A program made the position numbers and the translations under genes. The notes beneath the pieces are model-generated. The model saw only the letters and a list, made by a program, of their open reading frames with translations, did not search any database and was not told the DNA's origin. Of a stretch of 64,000 bases of DNA, positions 25,364 to 35,688 are shown one piece after another. Origin of the DNA: Brevibacterium sp. S22 (lineage in GTDB: Bacteria > Actinomycetota > Actinomycetes > Actinomycetales > Brevibacteriaceae); NCBI RefSeq assembly GCF_004745485.1, contig NZ_RHFG01000002.1:310001-374000 (forward strand). Reading direction: 5' to 3'. How positions within the stretch are numbered: position 1 is the first letter of the stretch; each line of letters opens with the position of its first letter.

Positions 25364-27313
25364 GTGTCATCTTTCTTCGAAAGCCCGGAATTCCTCGAGC
25401 AGGCCGCTGCCGGCCGAGTGAGCCACAGTCCCGGCATGGCCGACGAGCTCATGCAGGAGATGGCGCCGTTCCTCAAGGCCGAAGGCATCGACATCGATGA
25501 CCCGAATGCGGACTTCACCGAAGCCGAATTCCACGCAGCCATGGAAAAGGCGCAGGCGCAGTACAACCGCCGCCTGTTCACACCGGTCGGAGCCCATCGC
25601 GGGCTGGCGTTGGCCGAGCTGCGGGAGTTCGCTCTCGCCGTTGCCGCCGGAGATGTCGACGGTGCATCGGCGGTCGTGTCCTCACTGCCTTCGGACCCCG
25701 AGGACTTCGCCCCGAGCGTCGCGCAGGTGACCGGTGCGGCCATGGGGTTGGTTGACGAATGGTTCACCGACGAGACCTACGGGCCCAGGCTCGGCGGAGT
25801 CATGGCACCGAAGTGGCGGGCGAAGAAGTCCCGCGCCGTGGCCCGCGACATCCTGGCCCTGGCGCACAAGGGGCGCGTCGTCGACAGCCTCGACCGCCTC
25901 ATCGCCGGCAACAGCGGGCTGCCCGTCCTCGAGGGATCCATGCTCGCCGTCGCCGCCGCAGTCACGCGGCTGAGCAGGGCGAACAAGGTGCCTGCAGAGG
26001 AGGTCGTTGACGAGCTCATGCCTCTGGCCGGCTATCCGGAACCGGTCGCGGGTTCGTGTGCGGGAACATCGGCACAAACCGACGGCGCTGTCCACGATGC
26101 TGAAACGATCCAGGCCGAACTGCCCGCTTGGCTCGGCGGGCAGACCGCGGAGGACCAGCTGCTTGCCGGCGGCGGGTCGGCTGCCGACGCTGAGACGGAT
26201 ATCGACACGCGGATGGACGAGGTCGAAGCGATCGTCCACGAGATGCCGCTCAATCAGCGCTTCCGCGACTGGCTGTCGGACGAACTCGACGACCCCGGCG
26301 AGGATTCCGAGATCTTCGCGTCCGCCCACCTCCTCTTCTGCATCGCCGTGTCCGCCGGCATCTCCATCGAGGAGCCCGAAGGAGTCCTCGACCTCCTCGA
26401 CGTCCTCGAGGGCTTCGCCGCCGATGGCAGCAAGGGCGAAAGTGACAGGTCCACAGCCATCTTCGTCGACAGCCTCGAGGCGCTTGACGACTACCTCCAC
26501 TTCCGCATGGACACCGACGAGGACCCGGCACGCTGGGACGAGGTCCACACACACGCCGAAGCGGCAGGCATGCGGACGGACCCGCTGCCGGCGATGCTCA
26601 TGAACCAGATCGAATCCAGCGCACTCGACGAGGAGGAGGCCGCCGCTCCGCTGCCGTCCAACCTCCTCGTCGATGGGGTCACCGGCCTGCTCGAATGGAT
26701 CGGCGAGGGCCGAGCGGTGACCGGCAAGGGACGCGTGAAGCGTGCCGATATCGCCGAGGTGGTCGCGAAGTTCGACATCAACGCCGTCGGAGTCGCAGCG
26801 AACGCCCGTGTCGAGGACGGCGTCAGGTACGTGCGCAGCATCGACGAGGTGCCCACATTCGACGAGATCTGGAATGTCCTGCAGTTGGCCGGCATCATCG
26901 AACTCACCGGCACAAAGGTCCGCCCGGGCAGTGCCGCCGAGCAGTGGCGTGCCGGTGACGTCCCCGCCGAGACGGCCCTGCCGCTCGTCGGGTCCTTCAT
27001 CCATGAGCTGCTGGGCAATGCTGCGGACATGGTCGGCGACAGCAGTCCGGACACCAGCCGACTCCTGCTCGCTCAGCGCATCGCTGAGATCCTCGACGCC
27101 GAGGCGGCGCCCGAACGCCCCGAGTTGGAGCTGGACGAGGATCTCATTCAGGCGATGGATGAGATGGCGGGGAAGGTGATCGAGACCCTCATCGGATACG
27201 GGATCCTCGAGCGCGCTGCCGATGGTTCGCCGAACGTGCCACGACATTTCCATCGCATCGTCGCCGGTGCCGCGGTCGTGCTGCTCACGGGCTGGGGCCA
27301 CGAGGAGAACTGA
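25364..27313 (+). CDS. Large acidic protein of unknown function
   Basis: A 649-residue protein I do not recognise. It starts at GTG with AGGAG 6 bases upstream. It is strongly acidic and predicted mostly helical, with no signal peptide, membrane segment, Walker motif or cysteine pair. Notable stretches: 'FTEAEFHAAMEKAQAQYNRR', 'APKWRAKKSRAVARDILALA', 'HEMPLNQRFRDWLSDELDD', 'LDALEGFAADGSKGESDRST'-like acidic parts and 'RVKRADIAEVVAKFDINAVG'. 'LNQRFRDWLSDELDDPG' and the later 'TFDEIWNVLQLAGIIEL' look like repeated helical or winged-helix units, which could mean a DNA- or protein-binding scaffold. It lies 50 bases after the TetR gene and may share its transcript. Codon use matches its neighbours, so recent transfer is unlikely. 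Confidence 0.7.
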   Translation: MSSFFESPEFLEQAAAGRVSHSPGMADELMQEMAPFLKAEGIDIDDPNADFTEAEFHAAMEKAQAQYNRRLFTPVGAHRGLALAELREFALAVAAGDVDGASAVVSSLPSDPEDFAPSVAQVTGAAMGLVDEWFTDETYGPRLGGVMAPKWRAKKSRAVARDILALAHKGRVVDSLDRLIAGNSGLPVLEGSMLAVAAAVTRLSRANKVPAEEVVDELMPLAGYPEPVAGSCAGTSAQTDGAVHDAETIQAELPAWLGGQTAEDQLLAGGGSAADAETDIDTRMDEVEAIVHEMPLNQRFRDWLSDELDDPGEDSEIFASAHLLFCIAVSAGISIEEPEGVLDLLDVLEGFAADGSKGESDRSTAIFVDSLEALDDYLHFRMDTDEDPARWDEVHTHAEAAGMRTDPLPAMLMNQIESSALDEEEAAAPLPSNLLVDGVTGLLEWIGEGRAVTGKGRVKRADIAEVVAKFDINAVGVAANARVEDGVRYVRSIDEVPTFDEIWNVLQLAGIIELTGTKVRPGSAAEQWRAGDVPAETALPLVGSFIHELLGNAADMVGDSSPDTSRLLLAQRIAEILDAEAAPERPELELDEDLIQAMDEMAGKVIETLIGYGILERAADGSPNVPRHFHRIVAGAAVVLLTGWGHEEN

Positions 27314-30600: not shown

Positions 30601-31056
30601 TCAGCCGGATCCGGGCCGGTGCCCTTCCGCCTCGTCGAGGATGAGCAGCGACCGGGAGGACACGACGCCGGCGACTTCGTGGATCCGGCGCAGGATGACC
30701 TGTGAGAGCGCCGTGTTGTCCGGAGCATTGACAGTGACCAGGGCGTCGATGTCACCGCTGACGGCCTGCACCTTCTCGACGAAGGGCAGGGCGGCCAGGT
30801 CATCGCGGACCTGCGGCCACGGACGCTCGCCGATCTTGACGACGACGACCGCGGTCACGGTCATGCCGAGGGCTCCGCGGTCCACCTCGGCGGTGAATTT
30901 CCTGATCGCACCCGATTCGATGAGGGTGGTGAAGCGCTTATGCGCGGCGGAACGGGAGATATGGACGCGTTCGGCCAGCTGGCGCACGCTCAGGCGCGAA
31001 TCCTCGACGAGGGCGGCGATGATGCTGCGGTCGATGTCATCGAGGTCGAATGCCAC
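30601..31056 (-). CDS. Lrp/AsnC-family regulator
   Basis: A 151-residue regulator: an N-terminal helix-turn-helix ('LDDIDRSIIAALVEDSRLSVRQLAERVHISRSAAHKRF') followed by a RAM ligand domain ('VVVVKIGERPWPQVRDDLAALPFVEKVQAVSGDIDAL'). A GTG start at 31056 is chosen because AAGGAG precedes it and the length then equals the family norm. It converges with the siderophore-binding gene (13 bases apart) and is divergent from the etfBA-cytochrome operon across 375 bases. It therefore may control that operon in response to an amino acid; ligand unknown. Confidence 0.88.
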   Translation of the reverse strand: MAFDLDDIDRSIIAALVEDSRLSVRQLAERVHISRSAAHKRFTTLIESGAIRKFTAEVDRGALGMTVTAVVVVKIGERPWPQVRDDLAALPFVEKVQAVSGDIDALVTVNAPDNTALSQVILRRIHEVAGVVSSRSLLILDEAEGHRPGSG

Positions 31057-31431
31057 GGGGCGCTCCTTCACCGTTGATGTTCGCGTCCTGCCCGCCCGAA
31101 CCGAAGCGGTGTCGGTCGGGAGAGGTCGGTCTGACCGCATGCTCACGGCCTGACCCCATTCTAGGGCCCCGCCCCTGCACGGGAGGTGTCGCCGCCTCGG
31201 CGCGGGGCCGCTCCTTCTTCGGCGCGAAGCCTGCTTGGGGTATTGGACAAATTCTGTCGATCGTTCGTACAGTAACGAGCACGTCTGTGGTTCCCAGCAC
31301 GTACCATGGATCGTGGACACATGATCGGTTCCGTCTGGACCCGGTCAACGGACGGAAATCAGCCACCTGTAGATTATGAGACGAAAGTCTCATTGCAGCT
31401 GGAGCTGCTTCACGAACCTAAGGAGTCATCC
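31057..31431. other. Lrp / etfB divergent intergenic region
   Basis: This 375-base region holds a possible etfB promoter (TTGGAC 31243-31248, TACAGT 31268-31273, spacer 19) and a CCGCCTCGGC copy at 31192-31201. It also holds a short inverted repeat just upstream of etfB (31376-31393). No convincing small gene is seen. Confidence 0.45.
31376..31393. promoter_or_regulatory. Inverted repeat ATGAGACgaaaGTCTCAT upstream of etfB
   Basis: A perfect 7-base-pair stem with a GAAA loop (a stable tetraloop), ending 38 bases before the etfB start and inside the probable transcript. It could be an operator or an RNA element. Confidence 0.45.
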
Positions 31432-32208
31432 TTGAAGATCGCGGTGTTGGTCAAAGAGGTCCCGGATACCTACGGCGACCGCAAACTGAACTTGGAAACC
31501 GGGCTCGCCGATCGCGGTGCCTCGGAAGCCGTCCTCGATGAGATCGGTGAGCGCGCCCTCGAGGTCGCACTGACCCAGAAAGACAGTGACGGCGACACCG
31601 AGGTGACCGTCATCTCGATGGCACCGGACACCGCGACCGCGACGATCCGCAAGGGCCTGGCCATGGGTGCGGACAATGCTGTGCACGTGGCTGATGAAAG
31701 TCTGGCAGGAGCCGACCTCGGTCTCACAGCCGAGGTGCTCGCCGCCGCCCTGCGCCGCGGCGAATACGACCTCGTCGTCACCGGGAACGTCTCGACCGAC
31801 GGCAACGGCGGAATGATCCCCGCGATGCTCGCCGAGCACCTCGACTACCCGCACGTGACCGGTCTGTCGACCGTGGAGCTGGCCGACGGCAAGGTCGCGG
31901 GCACTCGCGGCGTCGAAGGCGGCCAGCAGCAGGTCTCGGCCGAACTTCCGGCCGTCATCTCCATCACCGAGGCGCTGCCCGAAGCCCGTTTCCCGAACTT
32001 CAAGGGCATCATGGCCGCGAAGAAGAAGCCCTTCGAAGTCATCAGCCTGTCCGATCTCGACATCGACGCCGAGGACCAGTCCGTGGCCCGGTCGATCATG
32101 GTCACCGTCGCCGAGAAGCCGCCGCGTGAGGCCGGCGAGAAGGTCGTCGACGAAGGCAATGGCGGAGTCGAACTCGCCGAATACCTCACCAAGAACCGTC
32201 TGGCCTAA
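31432..32208 (+). CDS. etfB: Electron-transfer flavoprotein beta subunit
   Basis: A 258-residue ETF beta chain ('[20 protein letters not shown]' at the N-terminus, then '[28 protein letters not shown]' and '[29 protein letters not shown]'). It forms the heterodimer with EtfA that collects electrons from acyl-CoA and related dehydrogenases. A TTG start at 31432 is chosen because AAGGAG lies 6 bases upstream and the conserved 'KIAVLVKEV' begins at once. It is first in an etfB-etfA-cytochrome operon. The ETF probably serves fatty-acid or amino-acid oxidation, not the oxygen-using sarcosine oxidase further along. Confidence 0.92.
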
Positions 32209-32219
32209 GGAGAATCGTC

Positions 32220-33197
32220 ATGTCAGAATTCCCGCAGGATTCCATTCTCGTCGTCCTCACTGCCGATGCCGAGGGCCAATTGGAGAAGCCGGCCGCCGAA
32301 CTGCTCGGCGGTGCCGCTGAGATCGGCTCGCCTGTCGCCCTCGTGCTCGCCGCCGGCAGCGCCGACGCCGCTGCCGAGAAGGCCGCCGAACTCGGTGCCA
32401 CCGCGACACTGACCGCTGCAGTCACCGAGGGCAACCTCGGCACCGCGGCCGTCGACGCCGTGGCCGCAGCCGCCGAGCTCACCGCTCCCGACGCCGTTCT
32501 CGTGCCCAATACGCTCGACGGGCGTGACATCGCCGGCCGCTATGCCGTGCGCAGCGGATCGGCTGTATCCGTCGACGCCACCGGACTCGAGCGCGACTCC
32601 GAGGGCATCGTGGCAGGCCACTCCGTCTACGGCGGCGGCTACACCGCGTCGTCGGCTCCGACCTTCGGTGCCCCCATCGTCACCGTGCGTCTGGGCGCGA
32701 TCGAAGCCCGCGCCGAAGCGCAGTCGGCGAACACGCAGGCCCTCGATGTCGCCGATTCGGGTAAGCGCTCTGCAGCGATCGATTCGTTCGAAGCCGTCGT
32801 CGAGACTTCCTCACGTCCCGAACTGCGCGGTGCGCAGAAGGTCGTCTCCGGTGGCCGCGGTGTCGGCTCGGAGGAGTCCTTCGAACTCGTCGGCGATTTC
32901 GCCGACACCCTCGGCGCTGCCGTCGGTGCTTCCCGTGCGGCCGTCGACGCCGGCTACATCGCGCAGTCGCACCAGGTCGGTCAGACCGGTGTGTCCGTGT
33001 CCCCGCAGCTCTATGTCGCGCTCGGCATCTCCGGTGCGATTCAGCACAAGGCCGGAATGCAGACCTCGAAGACCATCGTTGCGGTCAACAAGGACGGAGA
33101 AGCCCCGATCTTCGACATCGCCGACTTCGGCGTCGTCGGCGACCTGTTCAAGGTCGTTCCCCAGGCCATCGAATCACTGAACGAGAACAAGTCCTGA
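32220..33197 (+). CDS. etfA: Electron-transfer flavoprotein alpha subunit
   Basis: A 325-residue ETF alpha chain. The C-terminal FAD-binding region is well conserved: '[21 protein letters not shown]', '[20 protein letters not shown]', '[20 protein letters not shown]' and '[20 protein letters not shown]'. The N-terminal half shows the usual alpha/beta fold but is Ala-rich. The ATG follows TAAGGAGAATC, 11 bases after etfB. The next gene, the cytochrome b, starts just 1 base after the stop, so co-translation is likely. Confidence 0.92.
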
Positions 33198-33198
33198 T

Positions 33199-35688
33199 AT
33201 GGCAACCTATTCCAGTTCGCTGCGCTCGGGTCTGCCCCGGGTCGAAGGCGGAGACCCCTGGCCCCCGGAGGGCACCATCGGCGAGCCCTTGGAAGAGGGT
33301 GCGTCGTGGCTGCCGGAGATATCCGACACGGAGGAACTGGATGAAGGTTCCCCCGCCGAGGCGGTCGAGTCCGATGTGACCGACATCGAGGAACCGACGG
33401 AGACCGCCGTCTCCGCTGACGCCGAAGACACTGCCGACGATTCGGATGACGCTCCGTCGTCTGGTGCCGGTGTCGCAGCGGGAGCCGGCGCGGCCGGTGT
33501 CGCCGCGGAGGCCGAGGTGCCGCTGCGCCGCGGTCTGCCGCGCGTAGAGGGTGGAGAGCCCTGGCCGCCGGAAGGCTTCGCTCCTGCCGGAGTGAAGGCC
33601 GCTGGTGCGGCTGCCGCACCGGCCGGAGGACCTGCGTCCGCCGAGGATGCGGGTGCCCCTGCCGAGGACATGACCGGCTCAGCCGAAGAGCCTTCTGCCG
33701 ACGATTCGACTGAGGAGTCGAGTTCCGCTGTTCCGGCTGCCGCGGGTGCCGGGGCGGGAGCCGCTGTCGGTGCTGCCGCAGTCGCATCCGATTCGGATGA
33801 CGAAGAGGCCGCCGACACCGAGTCCCGTGCCCCCGAATCCGCCGCAGCCGGTGCCGCCGAGGTGCCCCTGCGCCGCGGCCTTCCTCGCGTCGAGGGTGGA
33901 GAGCCCTGGCCGCCAGAAGGCTTCGCGCCCGCAGGCGTCAAGGCCGCAGGGGCATCCGCTGCTCCAGCAGCGACCGCGCCCGCTGACGAGGTTGCGGACG
34001 AATCCGCTGCGCAGGGTGATTCTGCCGAAGCAGCTTCGGCAGACACTTCCTCTGAATCCTCTCTCGCAGCTCCCGCAGCTGTCGCCGCAGGAGCCGGTGC
34101 TGCTGGTGCCGCAGGCGCCGGAGCGGTCGCGGCTGGCTCGAGCAGCTCGGGCTCCGGAGAGCTCTCCGATGTTCCGCTGCGCCGGGGACTTCCGCGCACC
34201 GCCGGCGGAGACCCCTGGCCACCGGAAGGCTTCGCACCTGCGGCGGCCGCCAAGCCTGCTGCCGGCGCGACCGCCTCTTCGGCTGACGCGCAGTCTGCTG
34301 AAGCCGCAGGCTCTGATGCTGACAAGCCTGCCGAAGACGCACAGTCCGAAGCAGCCGCGAAGCAGGAATCCAAGCCGACAGCTGCAGCCGCCGGAGACGA
34401 CGCAGACAAAAAGCCTCAGGGCCGACGCACCGGAATCGGTGGAGTCGGTGCCGGTGCGGCAGCCGCAGGTGCGGGAGCTGCCGCCGGCGCAGGTGCCGCC
34501 GCAGCGGGAGCCGCCTCGGCGAGTTCGGAGAAGTCCTCCGACGCGGACGAGAAGAAACCCGCTCAGCGCCAACCCATGGGCAAACCCGCGGCGAAGACCG
34601 CGGACAAGCCTGCCCAGCGCAAGCCGATGGCCAAGCCCGCCGCGAAGTCGGCGGAGAAGCCTGCGGCCCGGACTGCGGAGACGCCTGCCGCGAAGTCCAC
34701 GGCCTCCGCGAAACCGGCTGCGAAGTCGACGTCTTCTGGTTCGGGCAGCGCCGCCTCGGCGAAGCCTGCAGCGAAGAAGGAACCGGTCATGATCGGTTCG
34801 AAGTCGCTGGGACAGTGGTCCAAGCTCGTCGGGCTGGGACTCGGCGGTCTCATCGTTGTGGCCGGGATCCTCATCCTCGCCGCGCGCGGTGTCACGACGC
34901 TGCCGGGTGTGCCGGAGTTCCTCGAACGCTACCCGGGCGAGTACCACATCCCCGAGTTCGTCGATCCGGGCTTCCCGGGCTGGGTGCGGTGGACGCACTT
35001 CCTCAATATCTTCTTCATGGTGCTCATCATCCGTTCGGGTCTGCAGGTGCGACACCAGCAGAAGCCGCCGGCGTTCTACACCCCGAAGAAGGGCGGGAAG
35101 AAGGTCAGCATCAACCTCTGGCTGCACACGGGTCTCGACCTGCTGTGGCTGGCCAATGGTGTCGTCTTCGTCGTGCTGCTCTTCGTCTCCGGACACTGGG
35201 CGCGGATCGTGCCGACCAGTTGGGAAGTCTTCCCGAACGCACTGTCGGCGATGCTGCAGTACGCGACGATGGAATGGCCGATGGAAGATGCGTGGGTCAA
35301 CTACAACGCGCTGCAGCAGCTGATGTACTTCATCGTCGTGTTCATCGCCGCACCGCTGGCTGCGATCACGGGTGTGCGGATGAGCGAATGGTGGCCGAAG
35401 GACGCTTCGAGGCTGAACAAGATCTACCCGGCGCCGTTGGCTCGGGCGATCCACTTCCCGACGATGCTGTTCTTCGTGTTCTTCATCCTCGTCCACGTGT
35501 TCCTCGTGTTCGCGACCGGGCTGCGGCAGAACCTCGGCTATATGTTCGCCGGCACCGACGTGGTCGGATGGGCCGGGCTCATCTGGTTCCTCGTGGCGAT
35601 GGTCGTGGTCGTGGCCGGGTGGTTCGCGGCCAGGCCGCTGCTGCTGGCCCCGATCGCGAACCTGTTCGGGCGGGTCTCGAGCAGGTAG
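33199..35688 (+). CDS. Cytochrome b-type membrane protein with a repeat-bearing disordered N-terminus
   Basis: An 829-residue protein in three parts. Residues 1-390 are acidic, Ala/Ser/Glu-rich and probably disordered. They contain four copies of a motif with consensus LRRGLPRVEGGEPWPPEG, at about 8-25, 109-126, 224-241 and 327-344. Residues 450-530 are basic 'KPAAK'-type repeats. From about 535 a membrane domain follows with five or six helices resembling cytochrome b561/formate-dehydrogenase gamma. Candidate haem histidines lie in 'WVRWTHFLNIFFMVLII', 'LWLHTGLDLLWLANG', 'ARAIHFPTMLFF' and 'ILVHVFLVF'. Being 1 base behind etfA, it may take electrons from ETF and pass them to quinone. That is inference: known ETF:quinone oxidoreductases are unrelated flavo-iron-sulfur proteins. 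No ribosome site precedes the ATG. Confidence 0.8.
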   Translation: MATYSSSLRSGLPRVEGGDPWPPEGTIGEPLEEGASWLPEISDTEELDEGSPAEAVESDVTDIEEPTETAVSADAEDTADDSDDAPSSGAGVAAGAGAAGVAAEAEVPLRRGLPRVEGGEPWPPEGFAPAGVKAAGAAAAPAGGPASAEDAGAPAEDMTGSAEEPSADDSTEESSSAVPAAAGAGAGAAVGAAAVASDSDDEEAADTESRAPESAAAGAAEVPLRRGLPRVEGGEPWPPEGFAPAGVKAAGASAAPAATAPADEVADESAAQGDSAEAASADTSSESSLAAPAAVAAGAGAAGAAGAGAVAAGSSSSGSGELSDVPLRRGLPRTAGGDPWPPEGFAPAAAAKPAAGATASSADAQSAEAAGSDADKPAEDAQSEAAAKQESKPTAAAAGDDADKKPQGRRTGIGGVGAGAAAAGAGAAAGAGAAAAGAASASSEKSSDADEKKPAQRQPMGKPAAKTADKPAQRKPMAKPAAKSAEKPAARTAETPAAKSTASAKPAAKSTSSGSGSAASAKPAAKKEPVMIGSKSLGQWSKLVGLGLGGLIVVAGILILAARGVTTLPGVPEFLERYPGEYHIPEFVDPGFPGWVRWTHFLNIFFMVLIIRSGLQVRHQQKPPAFYTPKKGGKKVSINLWLHTGLDLLWLANGVVFVVLLFVSGHWARIVPTSWEVFPNALSAMLQYATMEWPMEDAWVNYNALQQLMYFIVVFIAAPLAAITGVRMSEWWPKDASRLNKIYPAPLARAIHFPTMLFFVFFILVHVFLVFATGLRQNLGYMFAGTDVVGWAGLIWFLVAMVVVVAGWFAARPLLLAPIANLFGRVSSR

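Follow-up and report, generated by a model that had tools for sequence, protein, structure and literature searches.

Mycobacteria cannot use fatty acids without EtfD, the enzyme that normally feeds electrons from fat breakdown to the respiratory chain. Drug-discovery efforts are directed at mycobacterial EtfD, and a 2020 study by Szekely is said to deal with the repeats of EtfD. EtfD is the known actinobacterial ETF dehydrogenase (PMC13083937). In the M. smegmatis protein, about 30 kDa at the C-terminus are disordered and contain interspersed repeats that are conserved (EMBO J. 2026, PMC13083937), and AlphaFold 3 predicts that ETF contacts this region (PMC13083937). Here, we describe a candidate replacement for EtfD, a cytochrome b with a repeat-bearing arm, encoded directly behind the ETF genes in the window (the whole 64,000-nucleotide stretch of Brevibacterium sp. 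S22 DNA that was analyzed; coordinates refer to its forward strand unless stated otherwise).

In the window, etfB (31432..32208; PF01012 and NCBIfam EtfB-type matches), encoding the ETF beta subunit, is followed by etfA (32220..33197; PF00766 and PF01012), which encodes the alpha subunit and is the conserved upstream neighbor at motif-bearing loci. The start of etfB is most likely the TTG at 31432, not 31306, on the basis of a GGAG site ahead of TTGAAGATC; the N-terminal extension of the reading frame that begins at 31306 is poorly conserved. The etfA stop codon ends at 33197, and the next gene opens with an ATG at 33199, leaving the 1-base gap reported in the initial annotation. This gene is an 829-aa open reading frame (33199..35688) encoding the ETF-linked cytochrome b with its multi-motif arm, a single-copy protein in this genome. 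A divergent gene for an Lrp/AsnC-type regulator (30601..31320, reverse strand; PF13404 and PF01037) precedes the operon, and its region is conserved beside Brevibacterium etf operons, with an antisense frame (p185) kept at Brevibacterium loci. Several Brevibacterium also retain a 649-aa protein with no Pfam match (25364-27310 in the window) upstream of the etf region. The genome has a second ETF pair elsewhere (L257, G000:C11:52500-62000), adjoining an 853-aa FAD/GcvT-type dehydrogenase that resembles dimethylglycine or sarcosine dehydrogenase.

The first 344 residues of the cytochrome protein (33199..34230) form an acidic low-complexity arm, with 65 D/E versus 14 K/R. Four copies of an 18-residue motif lie within it, at residues 8-25 (33220..33273, LRSGLPRVEGGDPWPPEG), 109-126 (33523..33576, LRRGLPRVEGGEPWPPEG), 224-241 (33868..33921, again LRRGLPRVEGGEPWPPEG), and 327-344 (34177..34230, LRRGLPRTAGGDPWPPEG). 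The pattern LR[RS]GLPR..GG.PWPPEG begins at residues 8, 109, 224, and 327, with spacings of 101, 115, and 103. An A/K/P-rich basic linker beside the membrane follows (residues 345-538; 34231..34812), with 27 K/R versus 19 D/E in residues 345-530 and 6 K/R versus 1 D/E in residues 500-538. The initial annotation had placed all four motifs exactly, and the acidic arm and subsequent basic stretch that it described ahead of the membrane domain are borne out by these charge counts. When a homologue (L097) was modeled using AlphaFold2, its arm was predicted to be disordered (pLDDT mostly about 40).

The arm contains 63 repeated 18-mer pairs, compared with 0 in five shuffles. When we ran the motif profile over the window's genome, meaningful scores were obtained only at these four sites, the next-best match having E = 0.39. 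The four copies differ from one another by 5-9 synonymous codons in pairwise comparison, and they are therefore not recent DNA duplicates. We compared the window protein with 12 named Brevibacterium relatives. Each of these 13 proteins retains all four copies; within a copy, substitutions are exclusively synonymous at 13-15 of the 18 codons and alter the amino acid at 2-3, and the distance between motifs 1 and 2 drifts from 77 to 146 residues. The motif is thus under purifying selection while linker lengths drift. Chance or artefact as a source of the repeats is ruled out by the shuffles, the codon pattern, and the conservation. Short linear binding motifs typically show this pattern of conserved beads on a drifting string, which suggests that the copies may serve as such motifs.

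The membrane domain (34813..35685), predicted from the homologue to have six helices, matches PF01292 (Ni_hydr_CYTB) with 37.3 bits against a cut-off of 30.1, which confirms the b-type cytochrome proposed initially. A Pfam scan of the window protein returned PF01292 only, with no Fer4_ETF_QO/FAD, CCG/[4Fe-4S], or PF00174 domain. PF01292 was also matched by all 43 family members scanned (E <= 0.01), and four histidines are invariant over 43 sequences: His600 (34996..34998), His643 (35125..35127), His752 (35452..35454), and His766 (35494..35496), the last lying 14 residues past His752 in the window protein. FdnI of formate dehydrogenase N and HyaC of hydrogenase-1 belong to PF01292 as well, and in FdnI such histidines hold two b hemes. 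By analogy, the cytochrome is probably FdnI/HyaC-like and diheme, with His600 and His766 as predicted ligands of an outer heme and His643 and His752 as predicted ligands of a heme on the cytosolic side.

For the homologue L097, AlphaFold2 predicted six membrane helices (pLDDT mostly 80-94), and realignment of the model with VIA-align gave FdnI (1kqf_C, Z 10.4) and HyaC (Z 8.8) as the best structural matches. These matches stand above unrelated rows but remain below Z 13, the level that is secure for a helical bundle. Foldseek run on the arm-plus-cytochrome model returned meaningless matches only, and a search by sequence for solved structural relatives of the cytochrome found none. Loop charges, read by the positive-inside rule, suggest that the arm and the C-terminus lie in the cytosol. 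One extra helix ahead of the four-helix core would give that core the opposite orientation to that in FdnI, so that the His643/His752 heme would face the cytosol.

We then examined how the motif is distributed. Across the order (297 genomes, 94 genera), the profile matched 40 genomes belonging to 11 genera, and in 39 of the 40 the motif gene lies directly after etfA and the cytochrome is present. Of the motif-matched genomes, 29 are not Brevibacterium; we retrieved their regions (30 loci, with one genome split between two contigs), and 28 have etfB and/or etfA directly upstream, the cytochrome domain downstream, and one to four motif copies. The exception (G126; L083, G126:C8:65246-65290) is a weak 22-bit match in a 484-aa frame with no ETF or cytochrome nearby. 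The 11 Brevibacterium motif genomes show the same etfA-cytochrome arrangement, as judged by the coordinates of the ETF alpha and cytochrome domains. A search of 395 genomes of the class revealed one further clear case outside the order (G640), with two motif copies and the etfB-etfA-cytochrome order. The co-occurrence of motif and etfBA that the initial annotation had proposed to check is strict, holding in these 39 of 40 genomes across the order and in G640, and the motif is confined to etfBA-linked cytochromes, not found mainly in proteins unrelated to ETF or respiration.

Relatives from Microbacterium have this motif at the N-terminus as well as additional copies, and variants degenerate down to RRGLPRPGA. 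No motif is present in cytochromes encoded at a distance from etf genes, and two etf-linked cytochromes (L005 and L264) lack it. In the EtfA tree, the motif-linked rows form one clade (89/97); in the cytochrome tree, the motif-bearing rows cluster together (94/95), along with L099 and L003, the latter of which has no motif. The simplest history is a single gain of the motif arm, in the branch whose cytochrome entered the etfBA operon. L003, encoded on a Stenotrophomonas plasmid (NZ_CP090424.1), is a related cytochrome with 53% identity to the Brevibacterium domain and a proline/glycine-rich arm of the PGAPGAPG type. At L099 (G256), the motif lies in another reading frame than the cytochrome downstream of etfA, where a frameshift or sequence error is possible. 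The unlinked, motif-less cytochromes L259-L261 (G019, G259, and G152) and L030 start with lysine runs (KKKKKKK), unlike the motif arm. One genome (G226) has three etfBA-cytochrome sets, with full motifs (L096), the degenerate RRGLPRPGA (L263), and none (L264), and it offers a natural test of pairing specificity.

The presence of ETF dehydrogenases was compared in 53 genomes, which were chosen, not random, and are partly related (the 39 motif-bearing genomes, 13 other Brevibacterium, and G017). ETF alpha was detected in all 53. PF05187 (Fer4_ETF_QO) was detected in none, while control genomes gave positives, and a classic ETF-QO elsewhere in the genome was rejected on these grounds. A gene of this kind that could carry ETF oxidation, which would have spoken against the initial reading, is thus missing throughout the set. 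We detected the cytochrome domain in 47 genomes; it is missing from precisely the six that have EtfD. In these six (G003, G005, G009, G010, G083, and G097), we found CCG proteins of 803-810 aa that combine membrane helices at the N-terminus with two ferredoxin-type cluster motifs and two CCG domains. PDB 9ojn was matched by one of these proteins (E = 1e-222); the 9ojn chain has 1042 aa, the reported length of EtfD from M. smegmatis, and we therefore consider these proteins to be EtfD. The other CCG proteins that we read were GlcF, LutA, or a large FAD-linked oxidase, which excludes them as an EtfD elsewhere in motif-bearing genomes; CCG proteins not individually read fall in the same size classes. 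Class-wide, EtfD was found in 258 of 297 genomes; it was not found in the window's genome, and the list of matches contains no motif-bearing genome.

Across the 53 genomes covered by this pairing, every genome has EtfD or the cytochrome, with absence of one accompanying presence of the other. The anticorrelation first proposed had ETF-QO as its counterpart; ETF-QO is absent throughout, and the relevant actinobacterial competitor is EtfD, which is perfectly complementary in the genomes tested. With the EtfA tree as a stand-in for the species tree, EtfD-bearing Brevibacterium interleave with those that have an unlinked cytochrome, and the EtfD label undergoes at least three changes over well-supported branches. 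Cytochromes of the family that lack the motif and are not linked to etf genes show this complementarity too, so the basic function does not depend on the arm. This repeated exchange, which includes motif-less forms, suggests that the whole cytochrome family replaces EtfD and that the arm marks its etfBA-linked branch.

Given the etfBA linkage, the complementarity, and the repeated exchange, we consider it likely that the cytochrome replaces EtfD in function. A caveat for this role is that no FeS cluster or flavin stands between ETF and heme, unlike in EtfD and ETF-QO. We propose that the core is a diheme cytochrome b of the FdnI/HyaC type with one extra N-terminal helix; judging by the loop charges, the N-terminal arm would lie in the cytosol and the His643/His752 heme at the cytosolic face. 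This heme would take electrons from the ETF flavin, and the electrons would pass through the second heme to menaquinone. The etfBA-linked branch would have gained the long disordered arm, in which [LVI]RRGLPRxxGGxPWPP occurs one to four times; these motifs most likely bind ETF and keep a local ETF pool at the membrane. On balance, we favor this reading as a whole, in which the armed cytochrome is a stand-alone, EtfD-replacing ETF:menaquinone oxidoreductase with an ETF-binding motif arm. An alternative to ETF-QO, as suggested in the initial annotation, is well supported by comparative genomics; docking of ETF by the motif remains conjectural, and nothing was found in support of the suggestion that the arm tethers several dehydrogenases.

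Binding of ETF by the motifs is, in our estimation, probable, and the strongest hint is the analogy to the EtfD repeat tail, which is itself predicted to contact ETF. In the EtfD proteins of family f22 (L195-L212), the disordered C-terminal tails carry 2-7 copies of a KGL/KGF-type motif, e.g., KGLGIAAGAKRPGAKK. This motif resembles KGLGIAxGAxRPGAKK and has only [KR]GLxxxxG in common with the cytochrome motif. Neither GLPR nor PWPP occurs in the 19 EtfD tails that we read. The tail motifs differ from the cytochrome motif, and the likeness is therefore one of architecture. Another EtfD (L185, G077:C3) has a tail of ~518 residues with 11 copies of NA[AK]PSWE, a repeat unrelated to the motifs of mycobacterial-type EtfD or of the cytochrome. 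We also modeled EtfA with a three-motif arm using AlphaFold2, in the absence of EtfB and of an arm alignment; EtfA was folded and the motifs were undocked, with pLDDT of about 25-55.

The undocked motifs in this model bear on a reading in which the cytochrome is an EtfD-replacing ETF dehydrogenase, but its motifs bind a partner other than ETF (bcc-aa3, a membrane or envelope protein, or each other) and so place the enzyme. Such a role would also agree with the complementation of EtfD by motif-less, unlinked cytochromes, which need no arm to dock ETF. However, a general respiratory partner would be expected to act on motif-less relatives as well, whereas the motif occurs only in the etfBA-linked branch, whose EtfA partners form the single clade described above. 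Together with the predicted contact between ETF and the analogous EtfD tail (PMC13083937), this confinement leads us to regard a non-ETF partner as rather unlikely.

A different electron donor is a further consideration. Some relatives of the cytochrome have a molybdopterin oxidoreductase domain (PF00174) on the same chain, and others are encoded far from etf genes, as might be expected if the protein were the quinone-linked subunit for another donor and its place behind etfBA reflected shared regulation only. The window protein, however, has no Mo domain, and the mutual exclusion with EtfD in 53 genomes, with at least three independent exchanges, and the retention of the etfB-etfA-cytochrome order in several families and beyond the order also speak against this reading; we consider it quite improbable. 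The possibility that the arm is low-complexity filler, with repeats that are a by-product of recent internal duplication, draws on its biased composition (A, G, E, S, and P) and freely variable length. It is hardly tenable in view of the synonymous differences that separate the copies, the mainly synonymous variation within each copy, and the retention of the same motif in several families and beyond the order.

If the armed cytochrome is indeed an ETF:menaquinone oxidoreductase, replacement of EtfD by a non-homologous protein in sister lineages would reveal the indispensable parts of the reaction, and the cytochrome would provide a simple, FeS-free system for ETF-to-quinone transfer. Through the repeated motif, the way in which ETF locates its partner in the membrane could be studied as a peptide-binding problem. 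Annotation that seeks only ETF-QO or EtfD would wrongly call such organisms unable to couple beta-oxidation to respiration. We searched the literature for an ETF-linked cytochrome b561 in actinobacteria and found no report, although one may exist. It is conceivable, if somewhat short of probable, that a diheme cytochrome b alone constitutes a third, unrecognized kind of actinobacterial ETF dehydrogenase and that ETF-capturing repeat arms evolved independently on unrelated ETF dehydrogenases, with GLPRxxGGxPWPP in the cytochrome, KGLGIAxGAxRPGAKK in mycobacterial-type EtfD, and NAAPSWE in another EtfD.

Most likely, the arrangement falls within known kinds, namely, ETF dehydrogenases and b561-type quinone-reducing cytochromes. 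The cytochrome would share with mycobacterial EtfD (Rv0338c / MSMEG_0690, PDB 9ojn) the role of ETF dehydrogenase, and it resembles EtfD in its predicted membrane heme b and in having an extended disordered arm along which conserved repeats are interspersed; EtfD is present where the cytochrome is absent. In contrast, the soluble domain of EtfD has two [4Fe-4S] and two CCG clusters, whereas the cytochrome has PF01292 and no CCG match, and the arm of EtfD is C-terminal, with the motif KGLGIAxGAxRPGAKK. The proposed ETF-to-quinone reaction is that of ETF:ubiquinone oxidoreductase (ETFDH, PF05187), but ETFDH is a flavoprotein with a [4Fe-4S] cluster, has no homology to the cytochrome, and occurs in none of the 53 genomes. 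The fusions of cytochrome b to molybdopterin oxidoreductase (PF00174), e.g., on Rhodococcus plasmids, have a homologous cytochrome domain with about 40% identity, but they have a C-terminal Mo domain and no motif arm. With FdnI (1KQF chain C) and HyaC (4GD3 and 6G94), the cytochrome probably shares the PF01292 four-helix core, and it has in common with them four histidines, the last two 14 residues apart. Those proteins receive electrons from FeS subunits on the periplasmic side, whereas the cytochrome has an extra first helix, which would invert the core, and an arm predicted to lie in the cytosol.
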